NCBI GenBank assembly: GCA_003021005.1
Contig: PXRI01000008.1
Coordinates: 62,001-126,000, forward strand
Source of the DNA: Halobacteriales archaeon QS_1_69_70
Lineage (GTDB): Archaea; Halobacteriota; Halobacteria; Halobacteriales; Haloarculaceae
Reading direction: 5' to 3'
Length of the DNA: 64,000 nt
This document shows positions 10,011 to 62,285 of this stretch, in pieces. A program made the translations under genes and the position numbers. A model generated the notes under the pieces. That model searched no databases. It was given only the letters and a program-made list of their open reading frames with translations, and had not been told where the DNA came from. The first letter of the stretch is position 1. Each line of letters opens with the position of its first letter.

Positions 10011-10475
10011 TTACTCGTCGTCCTGCTGTTGGATCTGCTGTTGCATCTGCTGCATCTGCTGCTGTTGGGCCTGTTGGGCCTTCTGTTCGAGTTCGGCCGT
10101 CTCCTCGTCGACCTCGTCGATCTCCGCGTTGAGCGTCTCGATGCGGTCCTCGAGGGTCTCCTTTTTGATCTCCAGCGAATCGATGGCGCCCTCGCCGTCG
10201 CGCTCGGCGGCATACCCGCCACCGAGGCCTACGACGATCCGGTCCATGTCCCGGATGTCGGCGCGGACATAGGCGCCGCCGCCCAGCGGTACCTGCACGG
10301 TGTCGTCGGTCGAAAGCGTCTCGATCGCCTCGATGCCCTCGTCGATCTCGGTCTTCTGGCCCTCGATGGCCTGGATCTCCGCCCTTATTGCCTGTTTTTC
10401 CTCCTCCAGCGCCTGGAGCTGCTGTTGGATCTGCTGCATGGCGCCGCCGCCACCGCCACCGCCGCCGAGGCTCAT
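10011..10475 (-). CDS. pfdA: Prefoldin subunit alpha
   Basis: Prefoldin alpha forms the two-copy core of the hexameric prefoldin chaperone that hands unfolded proteins to the thermosome. The 154-residue protein starts MSLGGGGGGGGAMQQIQQQLQALEEEKQAIRAEIQAI, giving an N-terminal coiled coil. It continues through the beta-hairpin core VQVPLGGGAYVRADIRDMDRIVVGLGGGYAAE and ends in a second coiled coil with a glutamine-rich tail. The ATG at 10475 overlaps the stop of the LX gene (ATGA), so the pair is translationally coupled. The longer ORF of the track is an extension without support. Confidence 0.93.
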   Translation of the reverse strand: MSLGGGGGGGGAMQQIQQQLQALEEEKQAIRAEIQAIEGQKTEIDEGIEAIETLSTDDTVQVPLGGGAYVRADIRDMDRIVVGLGGGYAAERDGEGAIDSLEIKKETLEDRIETLNAEIDEVDEETAELEQKAQQAQQQQMQQMQQQIQQQDDE

Positions 10476-10645
10476 CGCTCCACCTCCGCGACGTCGATCC
10501 GGGTGCGCTTCAGCCCGTGCCGGGAGCCGAACTCCGCGTACGTCCGCTCGACGGCCACGTCCTCGTTGGGTGCCTCGACCTGCGTCTCGAAGTCCTGCTC
10601 GCCGTACCGGGCGGGGAACGATCCCCGGACGGTGAACTCGCTCAT
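10472..10645 (-). CDS. rpl18a: 50S ribosomal protein L18a/LX
   Basis: This 57-residue protein reads MSEFTVRGSFPARYGEQDFETQVEAPNEDVAVERTYAEFGSRHGLKRTRIDVAEVER. This is the archaeal LX (L18Ae) protein of the large ribosomal subunit; FGSRHGLKRTRI is a typical block. I chose ATG 10645 because the longer ORF adds an N-terminus unlike the family. It ends inside the first codon of pfdA, forming an operon with pfdA and ftsY. Confidence 0.9.
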   Translation of the reverse strand: MSEFTVRGSFPARYGEQDFETQVEAPNEDVAVERTYAEFGSRHGLKRTRIDVAEVER

Positions 10646-10940
10646 GTACGGACGAGAGTGGGGGAGCCGGAAGTATCTTCCCAAACCACTTTTTACTCGC
10701 TCGGGCTTCCTCGCTCGCGGCTCGCGGTTCGCTTCGCTCACCGCTCGCTCCGCCCGCGGCCTCCCTCCGGTCGGCCGCGCGCCGCTCGCTGCGGGGAGCC
10801 ACTCGCTCGCAAAAACTTGGGGAAAAACGACCGCCCCGGCCGCTCCCTGCGGTCGCGGCCGGTGAACCGCGCTCGCTTCGCTCGCGCGGATGCTCGCCGT
10901 CGTGCGACCTTCGACTTTTCTCCTTCGGGCGTCCTCGCTC
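10646..10940. repeat. GC-rich intergenic region with palindromic repeat units
   Basis: This stretch is dense in CGCTCG/CGAGCG steps, with a unit ggcctccctccggtcggcc at 10758-10776 whose reverse complement recurs, with one mismatch, at 14275-14293 and 14466-14484. A second palindromic unit, ggccgctccctgcggtcgcggcc, lies near 10840. No protein-coding sequence is credible. This looks like a dispersed haloarchaeal intergenic repeat. Confidence 0.5.
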
Positions 10941-11264
10941 TGAGAGACTAAAGAAACGGCGAAATAGGAATCTTATAAGGTAGTTAAAGAGGATATAAAA
11001 AATATTGTAAACTGTGTGCTTAAGAGCATTTTAAGGGAGGAAGAATGCTGTTCAAGTCAATTTATAAATTAGTATAAAAGAGAAAATACAGAGGACATTG
11101 AAAAAGGGTATAAAAAGGAGGCTACAGAATACGGATAAGAGGGGTACAAATGAGGCTTAAAAGGACGTGAGGACAAGATTGTCCAATGGAGGGAAGAAGG
11201 GTTGTCAAAGAAAGGCATACAGGAGGAAGAGAGGCGAATAGGAGACGGTTGAAGAGGGAATTGT
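10941..11264. other. AT-rich, purine-rich non-coding tract
   Basis: About 320 bases between the LX gene and eif6 are AT-rich and strongly biased to A and G on the plus strand (for example aggaggaagagaggcgaata and gaagagggaattg). Several TATAAAA-like motifs occur, near 10994, 11073 and 11110. No ORF with a recognisable product is present. It could encode an untranslated RNA or be the long 3' region of the minus-strand eif6 operon. I cannot decide between these. Confidence 0.4.
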
Positions 11265-11858
11265 TTACACGTAGCCCAGCGCGTCCTCGATCCGGCCGAG
11301 TTCCGGGCCGGAGGTGTCCCGGCCGACCACGTACCCCTCGGCGTTCGCCACCAGGCCCGACCCGACCAGGGGGCCGCCGTAGTTGATGGTCCCGATGTCG
11401 GCGTAGGCGCCGAAGACGTCCTCGAGGGCGTCCAGCTCCGCGTCGGTGGTCTTCGGGTGACAGAGCACACCTGCCTCGGTCGCGACGGCCGCCGTGCCGA
11501 CCGTGCGGACGTCCGCGAGCGTACCACGTTCGACCGGCACGTCGAGGGCGTCGCCGACGGCCCGGACGGCCTCTCGGGTGAGGTCGGGGTGGACGTACGC
11601 CCCGGTGTCGTTGGCGAGCACGACGTTCCCGGCGGCGTTGATGCGGCCCGGGAGTTCCGAGACGGCGACGCCGGCCGCATCCTCGATGCGGTCCCGTTCG
11701 CGGTCACGGACGCGCTCGCTCACGAGCAGGCCGTTCCCGTTGCCGACCGCGAGCGCGCCGACGGTGCCGGAGCCGGCGACGGTGGTGGGGACCGCGGACA
11801 CTCCCAGTTCCGCCTCGAAGGCCTCGAGGCGGTCCGTCTCGAGGGCCGCCCGGAGCAC
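11265..11858 (-). CDS. eif6: Translation initiation factor aIF-6, N-terminal segment missing
   Basis: aIF-6 binds the large ribosomal subunit and prevents premature joining with the small subunit. Clear family blocks are [90 protein letters not shown] and [13 protein letters not shown]. The start is GTG 11858, two bases after the rpl31e stop. The protein has 197 residues, whereas haloarchaeal homologues that I recall have about 220. After VLRAA it jumps to [14 protein letters not shown], so the highly conserved first strand (YVGVFARATD-like) is absent. I infer an in-frame deletion of roughly 22-24 codons. Confidence 0.88.
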
Positions 11859-11859
11859 G

Positions 11860-12132
11860 TCAGGCCGGCTCGGCCTCGACGACCGCCTCGCCCGCCTCCT
11901 CGAAACGCGCCGCGCGGACGCGGAGCGTCTCGGGGGGCTTCGAGCGGCCGCGCTCCCAGACCGCCTCGTTGATGGTGGGGTCCAGCCTGACGTCCTCTTC
12001 GGCGACGTTGAAGTGTTGGGCGAGGTGCTCGCGGACGAGGCTCATCGCCTTGTCCGCCCGCCGGCCCTTCGACTCCGCGAGGACGTCACGGAGCGGGACC
12101 GTCATGACGCGCTCGTCGAACTCGGTGCTCAT
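11860..12132 (-). CDS. rpl31e: 50S ribosomal protein L31e
   Basis: The 90-residue protein reads [41 protein letters not shown] and has the family blocks [30 protein letters not shown]. It is a large-subunit protein near the exit tunnel and matches the usual haloarchaeal length. Its start overlaps the rpl39e stop (ATGA) and eif6 follows within 2 bases, so the three genes form one operon. The long 417-residue ORF spanning this region is a shadow frame. Confidence 0.93.
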
Positions 12133-12281
12133 TCGTCCGTGTCGTTCCGCCGCCAGTTGCGGCGCTTGTGGTTCCGGAGGGTGTCGCGGTCGGTCTTCAT
12201 GATGACCCAGGCCGGCACCCGACTGTTCTGTCGCTCCAGCTTCGAGAGCCGCTTTTTCTTCGCCTTCGACTTCTTGCCCAT
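12129..12281 (-). CDS. rpl39e: 50S ribosomal protein L39e
   Basis: This gene is too short for the ORF track. It encodes 50 residues, [32 protein letters not shown]...[13 protein letters not shown], a close fit to archaeal L39e, which lines the exit tunnel. The ATG lies 27 bases from a TTTAA promoter box on the minus strand. It is the first gene of the rpl39e-rpl31e-eif6 operon, and its stop overlaps the rpl31e start. Confidence 0.93.
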
Positions 12282-38938: not shown

Positions 38939-39949
38939 ATGGAACTCGAACCCATCGAACCCGAAACCGCAGTCGAACTGTACCTGGCCGACAGGGAACC
39001 GGAACTGAGAAGCGTGACACTGAACTCCCACCGCTCGCGGCTCGGCTTCTTCGTCGAGTGGTGTGCCGACCGCGGCATCGATAACCTGAACGAGCTGACA
39101 GGCCGGAAACTCAACGAGTACCGCCTCTGGCGCCGTAACGACGGCGACCTGGCGCCCGCCACCGAGAACTGCCAGATGGACACCCTTCGGGTCTTCGTCC
39201 GCTGGCTCGAATCCATTGACGGGGCACAGCAGGACCTCCACCAGAAGGTCCGCTCGCCCGCCGTCGGCCGCGACGAAGGCAGCCGCGACGAGATGCTGGA
39301 CGCCGAGGAGGCAGAGAAAGTGCTGACCTACCTCGAGACCTACGGGTACGCCTCGCCCCAGCACGTCACACTCGAGCTGCTTTGGCACACGATGCTCCGC
39401 CGCGGGGCCGCGCACGGCCTGGACGTCGACGACTACCACCCTGAGGACAAGTGTCTGGAGATACTCCACCGCCCGGAGACGGACACCCCGATCAAGAACG
39501 GGAAGCGTGGCGAGCGACTCCTGGCGCTCTCAGGGGACTTCTGCAACCTCCTCGATGACTACCTCCGACATAAACGGCACGACGTCGAAGACGACCACGG
39601 CCGCCGACCACTCCTCACGTCGGCCCGAGGCCGCCTGGGCCGATCGACCATCGGGAAATACTGTTATCGATATACCAGACCCTGTGAATACGACAACGAC
39701 TGCCCGCACGACCGCGATCCAGATGCCTGCGAAGCCGTGAATACCCGCAAGTGGTCTTCTTGCCCGTCGAGCCTCAGTCCGCACCCGTTCCGTCGCGGCA
39801 GTATCACGCACCAGCTCAAGGAAGATGTCCCGGAAACGGCTGTGGGGGGTCGGGCGAACGTGAGCCAGGATATCCTGGAGAAGCACTACGATCAACGGAC
39901 GAAGCGGGAGAAGATGGAGCAGCGACGGAAATATCTCAACAAGATATAA
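38939..39949 (+). CDS. Tyrosine recombinase (integrase)
   Basis: The 336-residue protein has an N-terminal core-binding domain (VELYLADREPELRSVTLNSHRSRLGFFVEWC) and a C-terminal catalytic domain. The catalytic residues are visible as R in TMLRRGAAHGLDVDD, H and R in SPHPFRRGSITHQL, and the tyrosine nucleophile in LEKHYDQRTKREK near residue 316. A cysteine-rich insertion, RPCEYDNDCPHDRDPDACEAVNTRKWSSCPSS, precedes the HxxR motif and may bind zinc. It is convergent with a second recombinase, so the two flank the AT-rich cassette. Such enzymes integrate and excise mobile DNA. Confidence 0.88.
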   Translation: MELEPIEPETAVELYLADREPELRSVTLNSHRSRLGFFVEWCADRGIDNLNELTGRKLNEYRLWRRNDGDLAPATENCQMDTLRVFVRWLESIDGAQQDLHQKVRSPAVGRDEGSRDEMLDAEEAEKVLTYLETYGYASPQHVTLELLWHTMLRRGAAHGLDVDDYHPEDKCLEILHRPETDTPIKNGKRGERLLALSGDFCNLLDDYLRHKRHDVEDDHGRRPLLTSARGRLGRSTIGKYCYRYTRPCEYDNDCPHDRDPDACEAVNTRKWSSCPSSLSPHPFRRGSITHQLKEDVPETAVGGRANVSQDILEKHYDQRTKREKMEQRRKYLNKI

Positions 39950-39953
39950 GATA

Positions 39954-39976
39954 TATAATATTCGTTTGAATATTAT
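39954..39976 (+). terminator. Hairpin after the integrase
   Basis: ATAATATT (39954-39961) and AATATTAT (39969-39976) pair as an 8-bp stem with a 7-base loop, 5 bases after the integrase stop. It is a candidate terminator. Confidence 0.35.
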
Positions 39977-40077
39977 CTCCGGATGGTAAGTATGGGTTAA
40001 TTATACCTTGATATACCCGCTGGGCTCAAATACTGCCTGACGTTACTTAACCAATAAGTTAGACTCCCGGGATAACC

Positions 40078-40086
40078 TTTATAAAA
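40078..40086 (+). promoter_or_regulatory. TATA box of the AT-rich cassette
   Basis: TTTATAAAA (40078-40086) lies 25 bases before ATG 40111, typical of a leaderless archaeal gene. It suggests that the two-gene cassette is transcribed from its own promoter. Confidence 0.6.
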
Positions 40087-40110
40087 TTTACACGGGTTCT
40101 CTTTGTTACC

Positions 40111-41151
40111 ATGGATATCGATATCCAGGGAATAGCTTACTCACAAATCGCATATCCGCTTGATAATAGCGACCAATGGCAAAATCTCATCGCAGGGGAG
40201 GAAGCGAATGATCTAGATCTTTTCAAACGTTACATCAAAGAGGTCGTGATCAAAGGAGACGTCTCTGACGTGACTGTAGGACATTTTGATGACACTGATG
40301 TAGAACCGCATGACTGGATAGAGACGGTTCGTTCAGTTGATGTTCAATCAGAAGAACAGGAGTTCCTCGACGCTGCTAAGAGAGTTTCTGAAAAACTTAA
40401 TGATATGATACATCAGGCTGCAAATGAAGGGGTTCTCTTCAACGTCCAAGCAGATATTGAAGATAGAGATGGGGGAAATATCGCTGAGGAAGGTCCTCAC
40501 CGTGTAGCGACTATTCTTAAATTAGATCTTGAAGAGGAGGAACGTCTTCAACTAATGTCTGATAACACTCTTGTTGAGTTAGATTTGGATGATATATTTC
40601 CAGAACCAAACGAACTTCAAAAAGGCCTATGTTATCCAATTATCAAAGTTCAGGGCTTCCGTTTACCAGGAGACGTGAAATTCTACCAGAAAGACAATGT
40701 TTCAGGTTACTTTCAGGAGTTTTTGGAATGCTCATCTGACCCAGGTTCTCTTGATCAGGCAAAGAAGGTATTTAACGCGGTTAGCCAAATCAAACGGGAC
40801 CGGACCGGTGAACTTGCCGATGGGAATGACCTGACCAGGTTCAAGAGCTTACAGGAAAGTTCAGACGGAGATGTGGTTGGAATAGATCATATTACGACTG
40901 TCGCAGGTGAAATCGTCGGAAGTGAGGTTTCAAGCGATGATATTGCTGAAAAGATGGGCGTTGATGATCCTCAGAGTATAGCTATAGATTCGACTGAGTT
41001 ACCGAATAAAGTGAAATATACTGTTGATGATGAGATTGACGTAACCTTCCCATCTTCAGCGAGTGATCATGTACGGAGGCAGACAACCGATGATGGTGTT
41101 GAAGTAATCATTACCGGGTCGGACGTTGATACAAATGTTTTAGACAGATAA
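40111..41151 (+). CDS. NA37/NdpA-like nucleoid-associated protein (weak match)
   Basis: The 346-residue protein has elements similar to the bacterial NA37 (NdpA) family. These are an N-terminal region with FLDAAKRVSEKLNDMIHQA, a strand RVATILKLDLEEEERL, a segment with LPxPNELQKGLCYPIIK-like order (DIFPEPNELQKGLCYPII), and YFQEFLECSSDPGSLDQAKKVFNAV. NA37 proteins associate with the nucleoid; nothing is known for this one. The gene is AT-rich compared with its neighbours, and codon use differs, so it was likely acquired. Its stop overlaps the start of the next gene by one base (TAATG), so the two are coupled. Confidence in the gene is high; the family label is tentative. Confidence 0.7.
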   Translation: MDIDIQGIAYSQIAYPLDNSDQWQNLIAGEEANDLDLFKRYIKEVVIKGDVSDVTVGHFDDTDVEPHDWIETVRSVDVQSEEQEFLDAAKRVSEKLNDMIHQAANEGVLFNVQADIEDRDGGNIAEEGPHRVATILKLDLEEEERLQLMSDNTLVELDLDDIFPEPNELQKGLCYPIIKVQGFRLPGDVKFYQKDNVSGYFQEFLECSSDPGSLDQAKKVFNAVSQIKRDRTGELADGNDLTRFKSLQESSDGDVVGIDHITTVAGEIVGSEVSSDDIAEKMGVDDPQSIAIDSTELPNKVKYTVDDEIDVTFPSSASDHVRRQTTDDGVEVIITGSDVDTNVLDR

Positions 41152-42866
41152 TGATCTCTGACCTTCACGGTGTTTTGACAGATCTACAAGACTCATGGAC
41201 GTATTCAGAAGATCCTACCACGATTAAATTTTCTAGTAATGAACTTACTATCTCATGCCGAGAAAGAATATTTGAACAAATAGCTGATATTCGTTCAATT
41301 TTTGATGGGAGAAGCCTGATATTCAAGGTTTCCGAAGAAAGAGATATCTTTGAATACAGAATCCACTGGGAACCCAATAACAACATTACCCGGACCAGAG
41401 ACCAAGACGAGGATACAGAAGGTGATGATTTGTTTCAGGATGATGCAGCAATATCAGCAATAGAGACTTTGAGAAACAATCGTATAACAAATACTGAGCA
41501 ATTACGGGAATGCTTAGACGGCTTCATTGGTAATGAAAACGTAAAGGTCAGTTTTGTTTACCGTGTAAATACAGCAGACATTAGCGGAGTGATTAAATCT
41601 GAGATAGATGAACTAAATAGTGTTCGATTTTATGTACAAAAGTCAACATTTTTGGACCATATAGACATCGATGAAATGGACTCATTAAAAGAAATACTAC
41701 TCCCGGCTAATGAAAAACAATTGTTTGTTATCCAAGACATCGATGCGGCTTGTTATGGAAAGGATCTAGGTTTCTTTTCCTTATCGAATCTATTTTCGGA
41801 TTCGTATAATGATTTCTTGCGGATGAGATCGGAAATTGAAAGAAAAATATCTAAGGTTGGGCGGGAGTGCGTTATCGATAAATTCGAGAGTATTTATATC
41901 CCCCCAGATTTCTTCGAGCTCCAATCCATCAATGACGAATCTTTCGTTTCCGATTTATTTACCCAAATAAGCGGCTATCAATTATTGTATTCAATATTTT
42001 CTCTTAGCAATGTGGTAAGTCGTCGTTCTGACAGTTGGCAAATAAGAATAAACGGTAAAAAAATTCTGGAGGAAAACGTAAAGATAGATGACCATGAAGG
42101 TGGTTGGGAATTGAAGACACTTACATCTGAGAGAGTAGAATCGGATGTTCTCATAACGAAGGATATGGTTAGTTCCTTCGTCGAGGTGTTCCAATGGACC
42201 TATGAGATCCGGGAGACAGATAGATTATCAGTTTTAAGAAATATCATCACACTGTACACTACTACGATTGAAGGACTAATTGAGGATATTGATGAAATAT
42301 TCGGAAGTTCAAAATCTAACTTCCAATTCTATGCAGAGGAGAGCGTTGATGAGTTTTTGGAGATGCAACAAGACGTTAGTAATTACCTTCTTGAAACTCA
42401 GCGGGAGATCTCAGAACTTCGGCGTAGCCTCGCAAATAACCTGAGTAGGGACCTATTCAGAGTTTTTGGCTTTTTGATCGTCGTCTGGGTGGGTATCTTC
42501 CTTCAATTAGAACAAATTGCTACAGTACAAAATGCTTTGAGTCTCTCACTTGTCCCGGTTATCTTATATCTCATATTAAGTATCCGTGCAGTTATGGGCT
42601 TAAATCAACAGTTCATTTCTATCGAAGAACGACGTGATTCGTACTATGAAATGTATAAACGCCAATTGAGCGAAGAATTTTTCGATGATATAGTAGATTC
42701 GGACGAAGACCAACGTATTAGTAGCCAATTTCAAACCGATAAATGTATCTATTATATAGTCTTCGGTGGGTTATTGCTATTTGCCATCTACGCGGTCATT
42801 GACCTGCAAGTTATCCATGGGCCAGTGTCAGAAATTGCTAGTTCTATTTTATCTGAGGCAAATTAA
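41151..42866 (+). CDS. Membrane protein of unknown function, partner of the NA37-like protein
   Basis: The 571-residue protein has a large soluble N-terminal part (about 430 residues) with no domain that I can name and a helical ELRRSLANNLSRDLFRV region. Three transmembrane segments close the protein: VFGFLIVVWVGIFLQL, LSLSLVPVILYLILSIRAV and CIYYIVFGGLLLFAIYAVIDL. It is AT-rich like its partner and coupled to it. A cytoplasmic sensor plus membrane effector layout is common in anti-phage systems, so I suggest that role, but only as an inference. It is convergent with the second recombinase gene. Confidence 0.65.
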   Translation: MISDLHGVLTDLQDSWTYSEDPTTIKFSSNELTISCRERIFEQIADIRSIFDGRSLIFKVSEERDIFEYRIHWEPNNNITRTRDQDEDTEGDDLFQDDAAISAIETLRNNRITNTEQLRECLDGFIGNENVKVSFVYRVNTADISGVIKSEIDELNSVRFYVQKSTFLDHIDIDEMDSLKEILLPANEKQLFVIQDIDAACYGKDLGFFSLSNLFSDSYNDFLRMRSEIERKISKVGRECVIDKFESIYIPPDFFELQSINDESFVSDLFTQISGYQLLYSIFSLSNVVSRRSDSWQIRINGKKILEENVKIDDHEGGWELKTLTSERVESDVLITKDMVSSFVEVFQWTYEIRETDRLSVLRNIITLYTTTIEGLIEDIDEIFGSSKSNFQFYAEESVDEFLEMQQDVSNYLLETQREISELRRSLANNLSRDLFRVFGFLIVVWVGIFLQLEQIATVQNALSLSLVPVILYLILSIRAVMGLNQQFISIEERRDSYYEMYKRQLSEEFFDDIVDSDEDQRISSQFQTDKCIYYIVFGGLLLFAIYAVIDLQVIHGPVSEIASSILSEAN

Positions 42867-42875
42867 TAGGAAGCC

Positions 42876-43996
42876 TTAATTACAAAAATTACCTTCATTG
42901 TTCAGCTGAAATTCGTCCAGTACCTGCTGACGTTGCTGCATCTTGCGCTCAGCAGACCGTACGTCATAGTGCTCATCGATAATGCTCGGGGAGACGTTAC
43001 ACCGCTCGCTAACCACCTCGACAGGAATCCCTGACGATAGTAGGTGGGTGATGTACCCCCGGCGGATCGGATGCGGCGTCACCGACGACGGACACTTCGA
43101 GACACTATCCAGATCGACGACCGCCTCGCAATCGGTGGGATCTCGATCGTGAGGGCACTCAGCTGAAACCTCACATGGCCTGGACCACTTGTAGATGTAC
43201 GTCCGGATCGTCGACTTCGCAACTCGACCATGCACCGATGTCAGAAGCGGTGATCGGCCATGCTCATCTGTTACGTCCGGCCGCTGGTGATCCAGATAGT
43301 CATCGATCACCGCACAGACCTCCGAGGAAATCGCAACCGGCCGCTCACCGCGGTTACCGTTCTTGATCGGGGTATCCGTCTCCGGTCGGTGCGCGATGTT
43401 TAGATGGGGTGTCTCGGCGTTCGGGCGATAATCGTCGATGTCAAGCGCGTGGGCGGCACCCATCCGGATCCCGGTTTCGGCCAGTATGAGCCAGGTCACG
43501 TGCTCGACGGTCGCGTACTCGTACGTGCCGAGATACTCGACGATCTCTTCGACTCGATCGGCGTGAAGAGTCTTTTCTCGGGAGCCTTCGCCACGCGGGA
43601 CGTTGGGGACGTTAATTTTGTGGAACAGGCCCTCGGGGACCGCGTCGATGGTTTCACACCATTTGATGAAAACCCGAAGCGTCGACATCTGCGTCCGTTC
43701 GCTGACGACGTTGAGGTCCTCCCGTCGCCACACCTGGAACTCGTGGAGGTCGCGAGCCGAGAGGTCGTTCATGTTCTCGATGTCCTGCTCGGTGCACCAG
43801 TCGACGAGAAGCTCAGACGGGACCTGTGGCCCTTGACGGTCGCCTGTTGACAGTCCCGCTTCCGGTCGTCGAGATACATCTGGACGGCGTCTGCAGGGGT
43901 GATCGGTTCCAGGGAGTTTTCGGACTCTTGAAGCACTCCCCGGAGCGTGTCCTCGAGATCCCGGTCGTTCGGGATGGTGGGGACGTCGTTATTCAT
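42876..43996 (-). pseudogene. Second tyrosine recombinase, frameshifted by one base
   Basis: The N-terminal frame (start 43996) reads MNNDVPTIPNDRDLEDTLRGVLQESENSLEPITPADAVQMYLDDRKRDCQQATVKGHRSRLSF and then fails. The continuation LLVDWCTEQDIENMNDLSARDLHEF lies one base out of frame. A missing C in TTC-CTC near 43812 would restore the protein. The catalytic part is intact: R in TGIRMGAAHALDIDD, HPIRRGYIT, and tyrosine in DEHYDVRSAERKM. It has the same cysteine-rich insertion as the first recombinase. The gene overlaps a ribbon-helix-helix gene upstream by the usual few bases. It could be a sequencing error or a true pseudogene. Confidence 0.75.
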
Positions 43997-61700: not shown

Positions 61701-62285
61701 TTATGGCGATTCGCCGGTCTCCAGCGTCAGATCCGACGTCGGATAGGCGACACACGTCAGCGCGTAGCCATCCTCGAGTTCAGCCTCCTCGAACATCTGG
61801 TTGGTGTGGTGTTCGACGTAGTCCTCGCTGTTGCCACCGTCCGTAATCTGACCCGAACAGGAGATGCACTGGCCCTCCCGGCAGGCGTACGGGAGGTCGA
61901 AGCCCGCCTCCTCGCCGGCCTCCAGAAGCGTCTCGTTTTCCTTGACCTCGACGGTCTCGCCCTCCTTTTCGAACTCGACGTCGTAGACCTCGGCCTCGTC
62001 GTCCGGGATGGCGGCGGGCGTGTCCTCACCGGCCGCCTCGTCGGCGAGTTCGCCCTCCCCTTCGCCCTCGGCGCCGCCGACGGCCGCGACCGCCCCGCCA
62101 CCGCCGCCGACGGTGCGGTTGGACGGCTCCGGAAAGTCCGTCTCGGGGACGGCCTGGGCCCGCTGCTCGAGGACCTCCCCGGAGATGTCCTCGCGGGGCT
62201 GCCACTCGCTGCCCGCCGCGAGGTGCAGCGCCACCGCGACGAGGGTCAGCACCGCCCCGCCGAAGACCCCCACGACACTCACCAT
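61701..62285 (-). CDS. Membrane-anchored [2Fe-2S] ferredoxin
   Basis: The 194-residue protein starts with a hydrophobic anchor (MVSVVGVFGGAVLTLVAVALHLAAG) and an acidic linker of about 70 residues rich in Gly and Glu (GGGGGAVAAVGGAEGEGEGEL). Next comes a plant-type ferredoxin domain: VKENETLLEAGEEAGFDLPYACREGQCISCSGQITDGG, and then GYALTCVAYPTSDLTLETG. The cluster cysteines CX4CX2C...C are all present. It carries electrons at the membrane; its partner is not encoded nearby. The length without the anchor matches haloarchaeal ferredoxins. Confidence 0.85.
   Translation of the reverse strand: MVSVVGVFGGAVLTLVAVALHLAAGSEWQPREDISGEVLEQRAQAVPETDFPEPSNRTVGGGGGAVAAVGGAEGEGEGELADEAAGEDTPAAIPDDEAEVYDVEFEKEGETVEVKENETLLEAGEEAGFDLPYACREGQCISCSGQITDGGNSEDYVEHHTNQMFEEAELEDGYALTCVAYPTSDLTLETGESP

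Follow-up and report, generated by a model that had tools for sequence, protein, structure and literature searches.

Intergenic terminators of Haloferax are T stretches that end at a C, and the sequence T5C gave 95% termination in vivo in a reporter (PMC7237163), with multiple closely spaced termination sites known in Haloferax volcanii (PMC7237163). A further mode of termination involves FttA, which binds and selects U-rich RNA, and at an FttA-dependent terminator the U-rich RNA lies approximately 30–36 nt upstream of the 3′ end (PMC11616081). Terminators located inside ribosomal protein operons matter for the growth of Methanococcus (PMC10450193). We compared these systems with a long, U-rich spacer tract within a translation-gene cluster of a Natronomonas-like genome (2.45 Mb, 82% complete). 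The window, i.e., the whole stretch of DNA analyzed, is 64,000 nucleotides long and corresponds to positions 62001–126000 of contig C8.

The tract downstream of eif6

Every gene near the tract is located on the minus strand. In transcriptional order they are rpl39e (12129–12281), rpl31e (11860–12132) and eif6 (11265–11858), followed by a spacer of 619 nt, the gene for the LX/L18Ae ribosomal protein (rpl18a, 10472–10645; Pfam Ribosomal_L18A) and, beyond LX, pfdA and then ftsY. A presumed TATA-type promoter of LX (GGAAGATACTTCC, 10669–10681, minus strand) was found approximately 24 nt ahead of the LX ATG, and the same block also precedes LX in other loci of the genus. The eif6 product has a Pfam eIF-6 match at positions 26–197 only, with the N-terminal part absent in comparison to relatives. 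It lacks 23 codons near the N-terminus that the sister species has, either through a real in-frame deletion or through an assembly error.

The tract (10941–11264) makes up the eif6-proximal half of this spacer and is non-coding from the eif6 stop codon onward. A first-pass annotation had given these coordinates, which proved correct, with the tract directly abutting the stop codon. It had also described the plus strand as low in C and rich in A and G within a GC-rich setting, and base counts over the 324 nt agree (A 137, G 96, T 65, C 26; 62% A+T, 72% purine, 8% C), compared to 64% GC in the surrounding window. The strand of the genes was not mentioned there; viewed in the direction of the transcript (minus strand), the tract is pyrimidine-rich and U-rich, consisting of 42% T, 30% C, 20% A and 8% G.

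This composition is exceptional within the host genome. A 200-nt scan over 2.3 Mb (approximately 94% of the genome) found no AT-rich stretch with purine/pyrimidine asymmetry that was longer or more pronounced than the tract, and open reading frames overlap most of the lower-ranking stretches that were examined. Among called spacers the tract stood first in strand asymmetry and T-richness, and on a combined score it ranked first of the 679 that measure at least 200 nt. It was also first of 997 regions downstream of a stop codon in pyrimidine content, T content and sense-strand T4+ runs, with six such runs, three of them T5+. Spacers in general display no pyrimidine bias (mean 0.503, SD 0.07, 741 regions).

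Such an asymmetry could be left by a plus-strand protein-coding gene that has decayed, as Lys/Glu-rich coding DNA typically gives purine-rich strands, and plus-strand frame 1 does yield Lys/Glu-rich peptide pieces. The best frame, however, has about as many stops as shuffles do (six compared to 6.2), the longest stretch free of stops falls short of the shuffle mean, substitutions between the tract and its counterpart in the sister species have no clear three-base period (9, 9, 4), and the indels between the two speak against coding. A six-frame translation of the tract (stops as X) returned a single sub-threshold match (E = 0.1) against Pfam and PHROGs. With no open frame, no codon-pattern substitutions and no homologue in these databases, a former gene is highly improbable. 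An unusual DNA structure had also been suggested in the first-pass annotation and, although one strand is purine-rich, the longest pure purine run is only 14 nt and the tract contains no G3 quadruplex motif, making a triplex or G-quadruplex an extremely remote prospect.

The plus strand carries three TATAAAA motifs (10994–11000, 11073–11079 and 11109–11115), as previously annotated, compared to 0.13 expected, and only one in 1000 dinucleotide-preserving shuffles reached three. This enrichment would fit a non-coding plus-strand transcript, perhaps antisense to eif6, that starts from a TATAAAA box with purine-rich, BRE-like sequence upstream of it, and the plus-strand fold in the window (z = −2.9) points the same way. 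In the sister species, however, the first two motifs are lost and only the third is kept, the fold weakens to z = −0.8, and an Rfam search of the tract returned nothing above threshold. The tract thus has neither a conserved secondary structure nor an Rfam match, and the non-coding RNA previously proposed for it is very unlikely. Folding of the sense-strand RNA was not significant in either species (z = −1.0 in the window, +0.2 in the sister species).

The eif6–LX junction and the adjoining repeat

The tract had been described as lying inside a conserved ribosomal cluster. The order rpl39e–rpl31e–eif6 followed by LX–pfdA–ftsY is indeed present, but within it the eif6–LX junction varies greatly among relatives. 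When 148 family genomes were searched at the DNA level, the tract turned up in two, the window genome and its closest relative, a sister species for which the matching named record is Halobacteriales MAG QH_7_69_31 (genus relatives with names include Natronomonas gomsonensis). An order-level search of 394 genomes added no carrier. The other matches in the family and order searches spanned 18–26 nt and are attributable to chance. Comparison of the gap between eif6 and LX, the check proposed in the first-pass annotation, showed that elsewhere it measures 35 nt (Halocatena), 110–240 nt, or 1.0–2.2 kb of unrelated sequence. The contents vary by lineage, L012 and L019, for example, being dissimilar and L013 containing GC-rich repeats; the haloarchaeal junctions compared (L008–L022, L030–L072) span 35 nt to 2.2 kb in all. 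The eif6–LX junction is a variable site within a core translation cluster, occupied by the tract only recently and in a single lineage. An insertion, as suggested earlier, or a lineage-specific spacer is supported by the two carriers, by the other sequence held at this junction in relatives and by the lack of conservation of two of the three TATA-like motifs.

Tract and counterpart differ at 14–16% of sites; their alignment begins one base out of register, and the 16% figure includes this error. Four-fold synonymous sites of six neighbouring genes, a rate that leaves out rpl31e because its codon alignment was out of frame, differ at 57 of 554 positions (10%), and those of eif6 taken by itself at 15%. 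Evolution of the tract is therefore no slower than that of silent sites. No conserved block was found in it, as the longest run identical to the sister species (23 nt) is that expected from random placement (P = 0.48). Its exact sequence is under no detectable selection and at most its base composition is selected; pyrimidine content is 72–75% in both species despite the divergence.

The main rival of a terminator function is neutrality, in which the tract would be a function-free, decaying remnant of AT-rich DNA from a plasmid, a virus or another mobile sequence, inserted at a junction prone to insertions. Its restriction to two family genomes, the unrelated sequence at the junction of relatives, the divergence at or above that of synonymous sites and the chance-level identical run all argue for this, as does the truncated repeat end adjoining the tract. 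Against it, the tract has no relative in Pfam or PHROGs, no match in a plasmid search and a single 37-nt match, consistent with chance, in a phage search. A second copy is absent from its own genome, where matches were confined to the bordering GC-rich repeat end, and no long direct or inverted repeats bound it, so that, within these searches, homologous copies, terminal repeats and target-site duplication are all lacking. The strand asymmetry has also lasted in both species, although pairwise data cannot tell this from slow decay. We regard a neutral remnant as a possible explanation, to be held tentatively.

Three further observations were made. Viral contigs scanned for exact 16-mer matches yielded 19, scattered and attributed to chance. 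In Halovenus aranensis, an AT-rich, purine-rich spacer of unrelated sequence (L057:3460–3640) lies just ahead of rpl39e, where the same cluster begins. Elsewhere in the window, a 3.1 kb region (39854–42988; 40% GC) contains two ORFs (346 and 571 aa) with no Pfam or PADLOC match and is flanked by tyrosine-recombinase-like genes (38939–39949, plus strand; 42876–43772, minus strand); it is reported here as a small AT-rich mobile cassette with cargo lacking a Pfam or PADLOC assignment.

The other half of the eif6–LX spacer is formed by one complete copy of a palindromic, dispersed repeat (10684–10894, minus strand; core GTTTTTCCCCAAGTTTTTGCGAG ... GAGTAAAAAGTGGG), matched by a covariance model at 131 bits (E = 3e-23). 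The truncated end of a second copy (GCGAGGACGCCCGAAGGAGAAAAGTCG, 10911–10940, minus strand; direct repeat D3, 84% identity), which has matches elsewhere in the same genome, directly adjoins the tract, as if the tract lay against or had replaced part of a tandem copy. Full copies occur in tandem at L139 and L074. The genome contains approximately two dozen copies of 140–210 nt (e.g., L139:5716–6019, L074:4328–4635 and L160:17362–17500), and a model built from nine of them has 41 base pairs, eight with changes on both sides, revealing covarying hairpins whose arms are altered or swapped between copies and between the sister species. The 18-base core was found in 55 of 146 family genomes, compared to none among the genomes listed for a control with the reversed core.

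For 18 of 24 copies, the distance between the GTGGG end and a convergent gene's stop codon is −2 to 16 nt; random intergenic points come this close in 4% of cases. As this end adjoins the stop codon, the element, read in the direction of the gene, starts right after the stop with CCCACTTTTTACTCG. The copy in the window is an exception, its end abutting the presumed LX promoter. No Rfam match was obtained at this copy, and literature searches of incomplete coverage returned no description of the family. The repeat may plausibly be a portable 3′-end or terminator element. A widespread repeat that abuts stop codons, carries covarying hairpins and has no description that we found may matter more than the tract itself.

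T-runs and a candidate terminator region

Our preferred reading, in which we place about even confidence, is that the tract is a lineage-specific spacer of neutral sequence serving as the U-rich 3′ terminator region of the rpl39e–rpl31e–eif6 operon. The spacer would separate two transcription units, rpl39e–rpl31e–eif6 upstream and LX–pfdA–ftsY downstream, and the tract, if transcribed at all, would form the 3′ UTR of eif6. Its RNA, which is unfolded, U-rich and G-poor and has six T4+ runs, one being a T5C, might let RNA polymerase terminate either directly at the T stretches or via the U-binding archaeal termination nuclease FttA/aCPSF1, and transcription of LX would then restart from its own putative promoter (GGAAGATACTTCC).

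This reading is favoured by where the tract begins, at the eif6 stop, by its top rank among the 997 downstream regions, by the lack of a significant sense-strand fold and by a conserved promoter-like block belonging to LX itself. A T5 run followed by C (CCCTTTTTCAATG, 11101–11105, minus strand) is of the T5C terminator type known from Haloferax, providing a sense-strand T stretch that ends at a C downstream of the gene; the sister species has CCCCTTTTC at this position. The TATAAAA motifs contribute further runs on the sense strand, namely a T6 run from the A-run at 10997–11002, a T4 run at the second motif and a T5 run from the A-run at 11112–11116. All five T4+ runs that could be scored in aligned columns are retained in the sister species compared to 2.9 expected (P = 0.055). 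Genome-wide, regions downstream of stop codons contain 189 T4+ runs compared to 116 A4+ runs (P = 3e-5).

Other results count against termination. T-runs in the tract are no more frequent than composition alone predicts, their retention does not reach significance, the reverse comparison of tract and sister species gave P = 0.66, and convergent spacers display no T-run excess (52 T compared to 47 A). A terminator needs approximately 20–40 nt. The 320 nt of the tract far exceed this, and a terminator leaves that length unexplained. Because the T-runs are at composition level and not significantly retained, and because the tract is overlong, confidence in a terminator region stays about even and the neutral remnant keeps a substantial, though minority, share. 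The sense strand is 42% T, and FttA dependence would place such U-rich RNA approximately 30–36 nt ahead of a 3′ end. Full-length FttA was not found in either tract-bearing assembly (82% and 72% complete), the window genome containing an FttA paralogue only; complete genomes of the genus carry an intact, full-length FttA.

We consider it unlikely that the whole spacer is a composite boundary. Such a boundary would combine a composition-coded, U/C-rich, G-depleted terminator of 320 nt, in which sequence drifts and composition is kept, with a copy of a portable, structured, stop-codon-abutting haloarchaeal repeat family lacking a known description. If the terminator reading is true, an archaeal terminator can be long and set by base composition, not by a motif, and factor-dependent termination in haloarchaea becomes testable by a simple reporter. 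If the tract is only neutral filler, the junction would still show that a core translation cluster tolerates repeated insertion as well as replacement.

Comparison with known termination systems

Bacterial Rho rut sites are C-rich, G-poor RNA. The RNA of the tract would resemble them in being long, C/U-rich, G-poor, unfolded and located downstream of a gene, but the likeness is an analogy only because, to our knowledge, Archaea lack Rho. The terminators dependent on FttA/aCPSF1 are a closer match, as a U-rich, unstructured RNA is their expected substrate (PMC11616081, PMC8716108). Those systems differ from the tract, which is described from its DNA sequence only and whose host, an 82% complete MAG, did not yield the full-length factor.

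As with the internal operon terminators of Methanococcus maripaludis (PMC10450193), the tract is a U-tract spacer within a translation-gene cluster that may part differently expressed genes; unlike them, it is confined to two species and is followed by a promoter-like block on the LX side. Compared to the terminators of Haloferax volcanii, each with one short T stretch, the tract is continuously U/C-rich and G-poor over approximately 320 nt and its proposed role is a prediction from sequence, yet it shares with them sense-strand T stretches, one of which is followed by C, placed right after a stop codon (PMC7237163).
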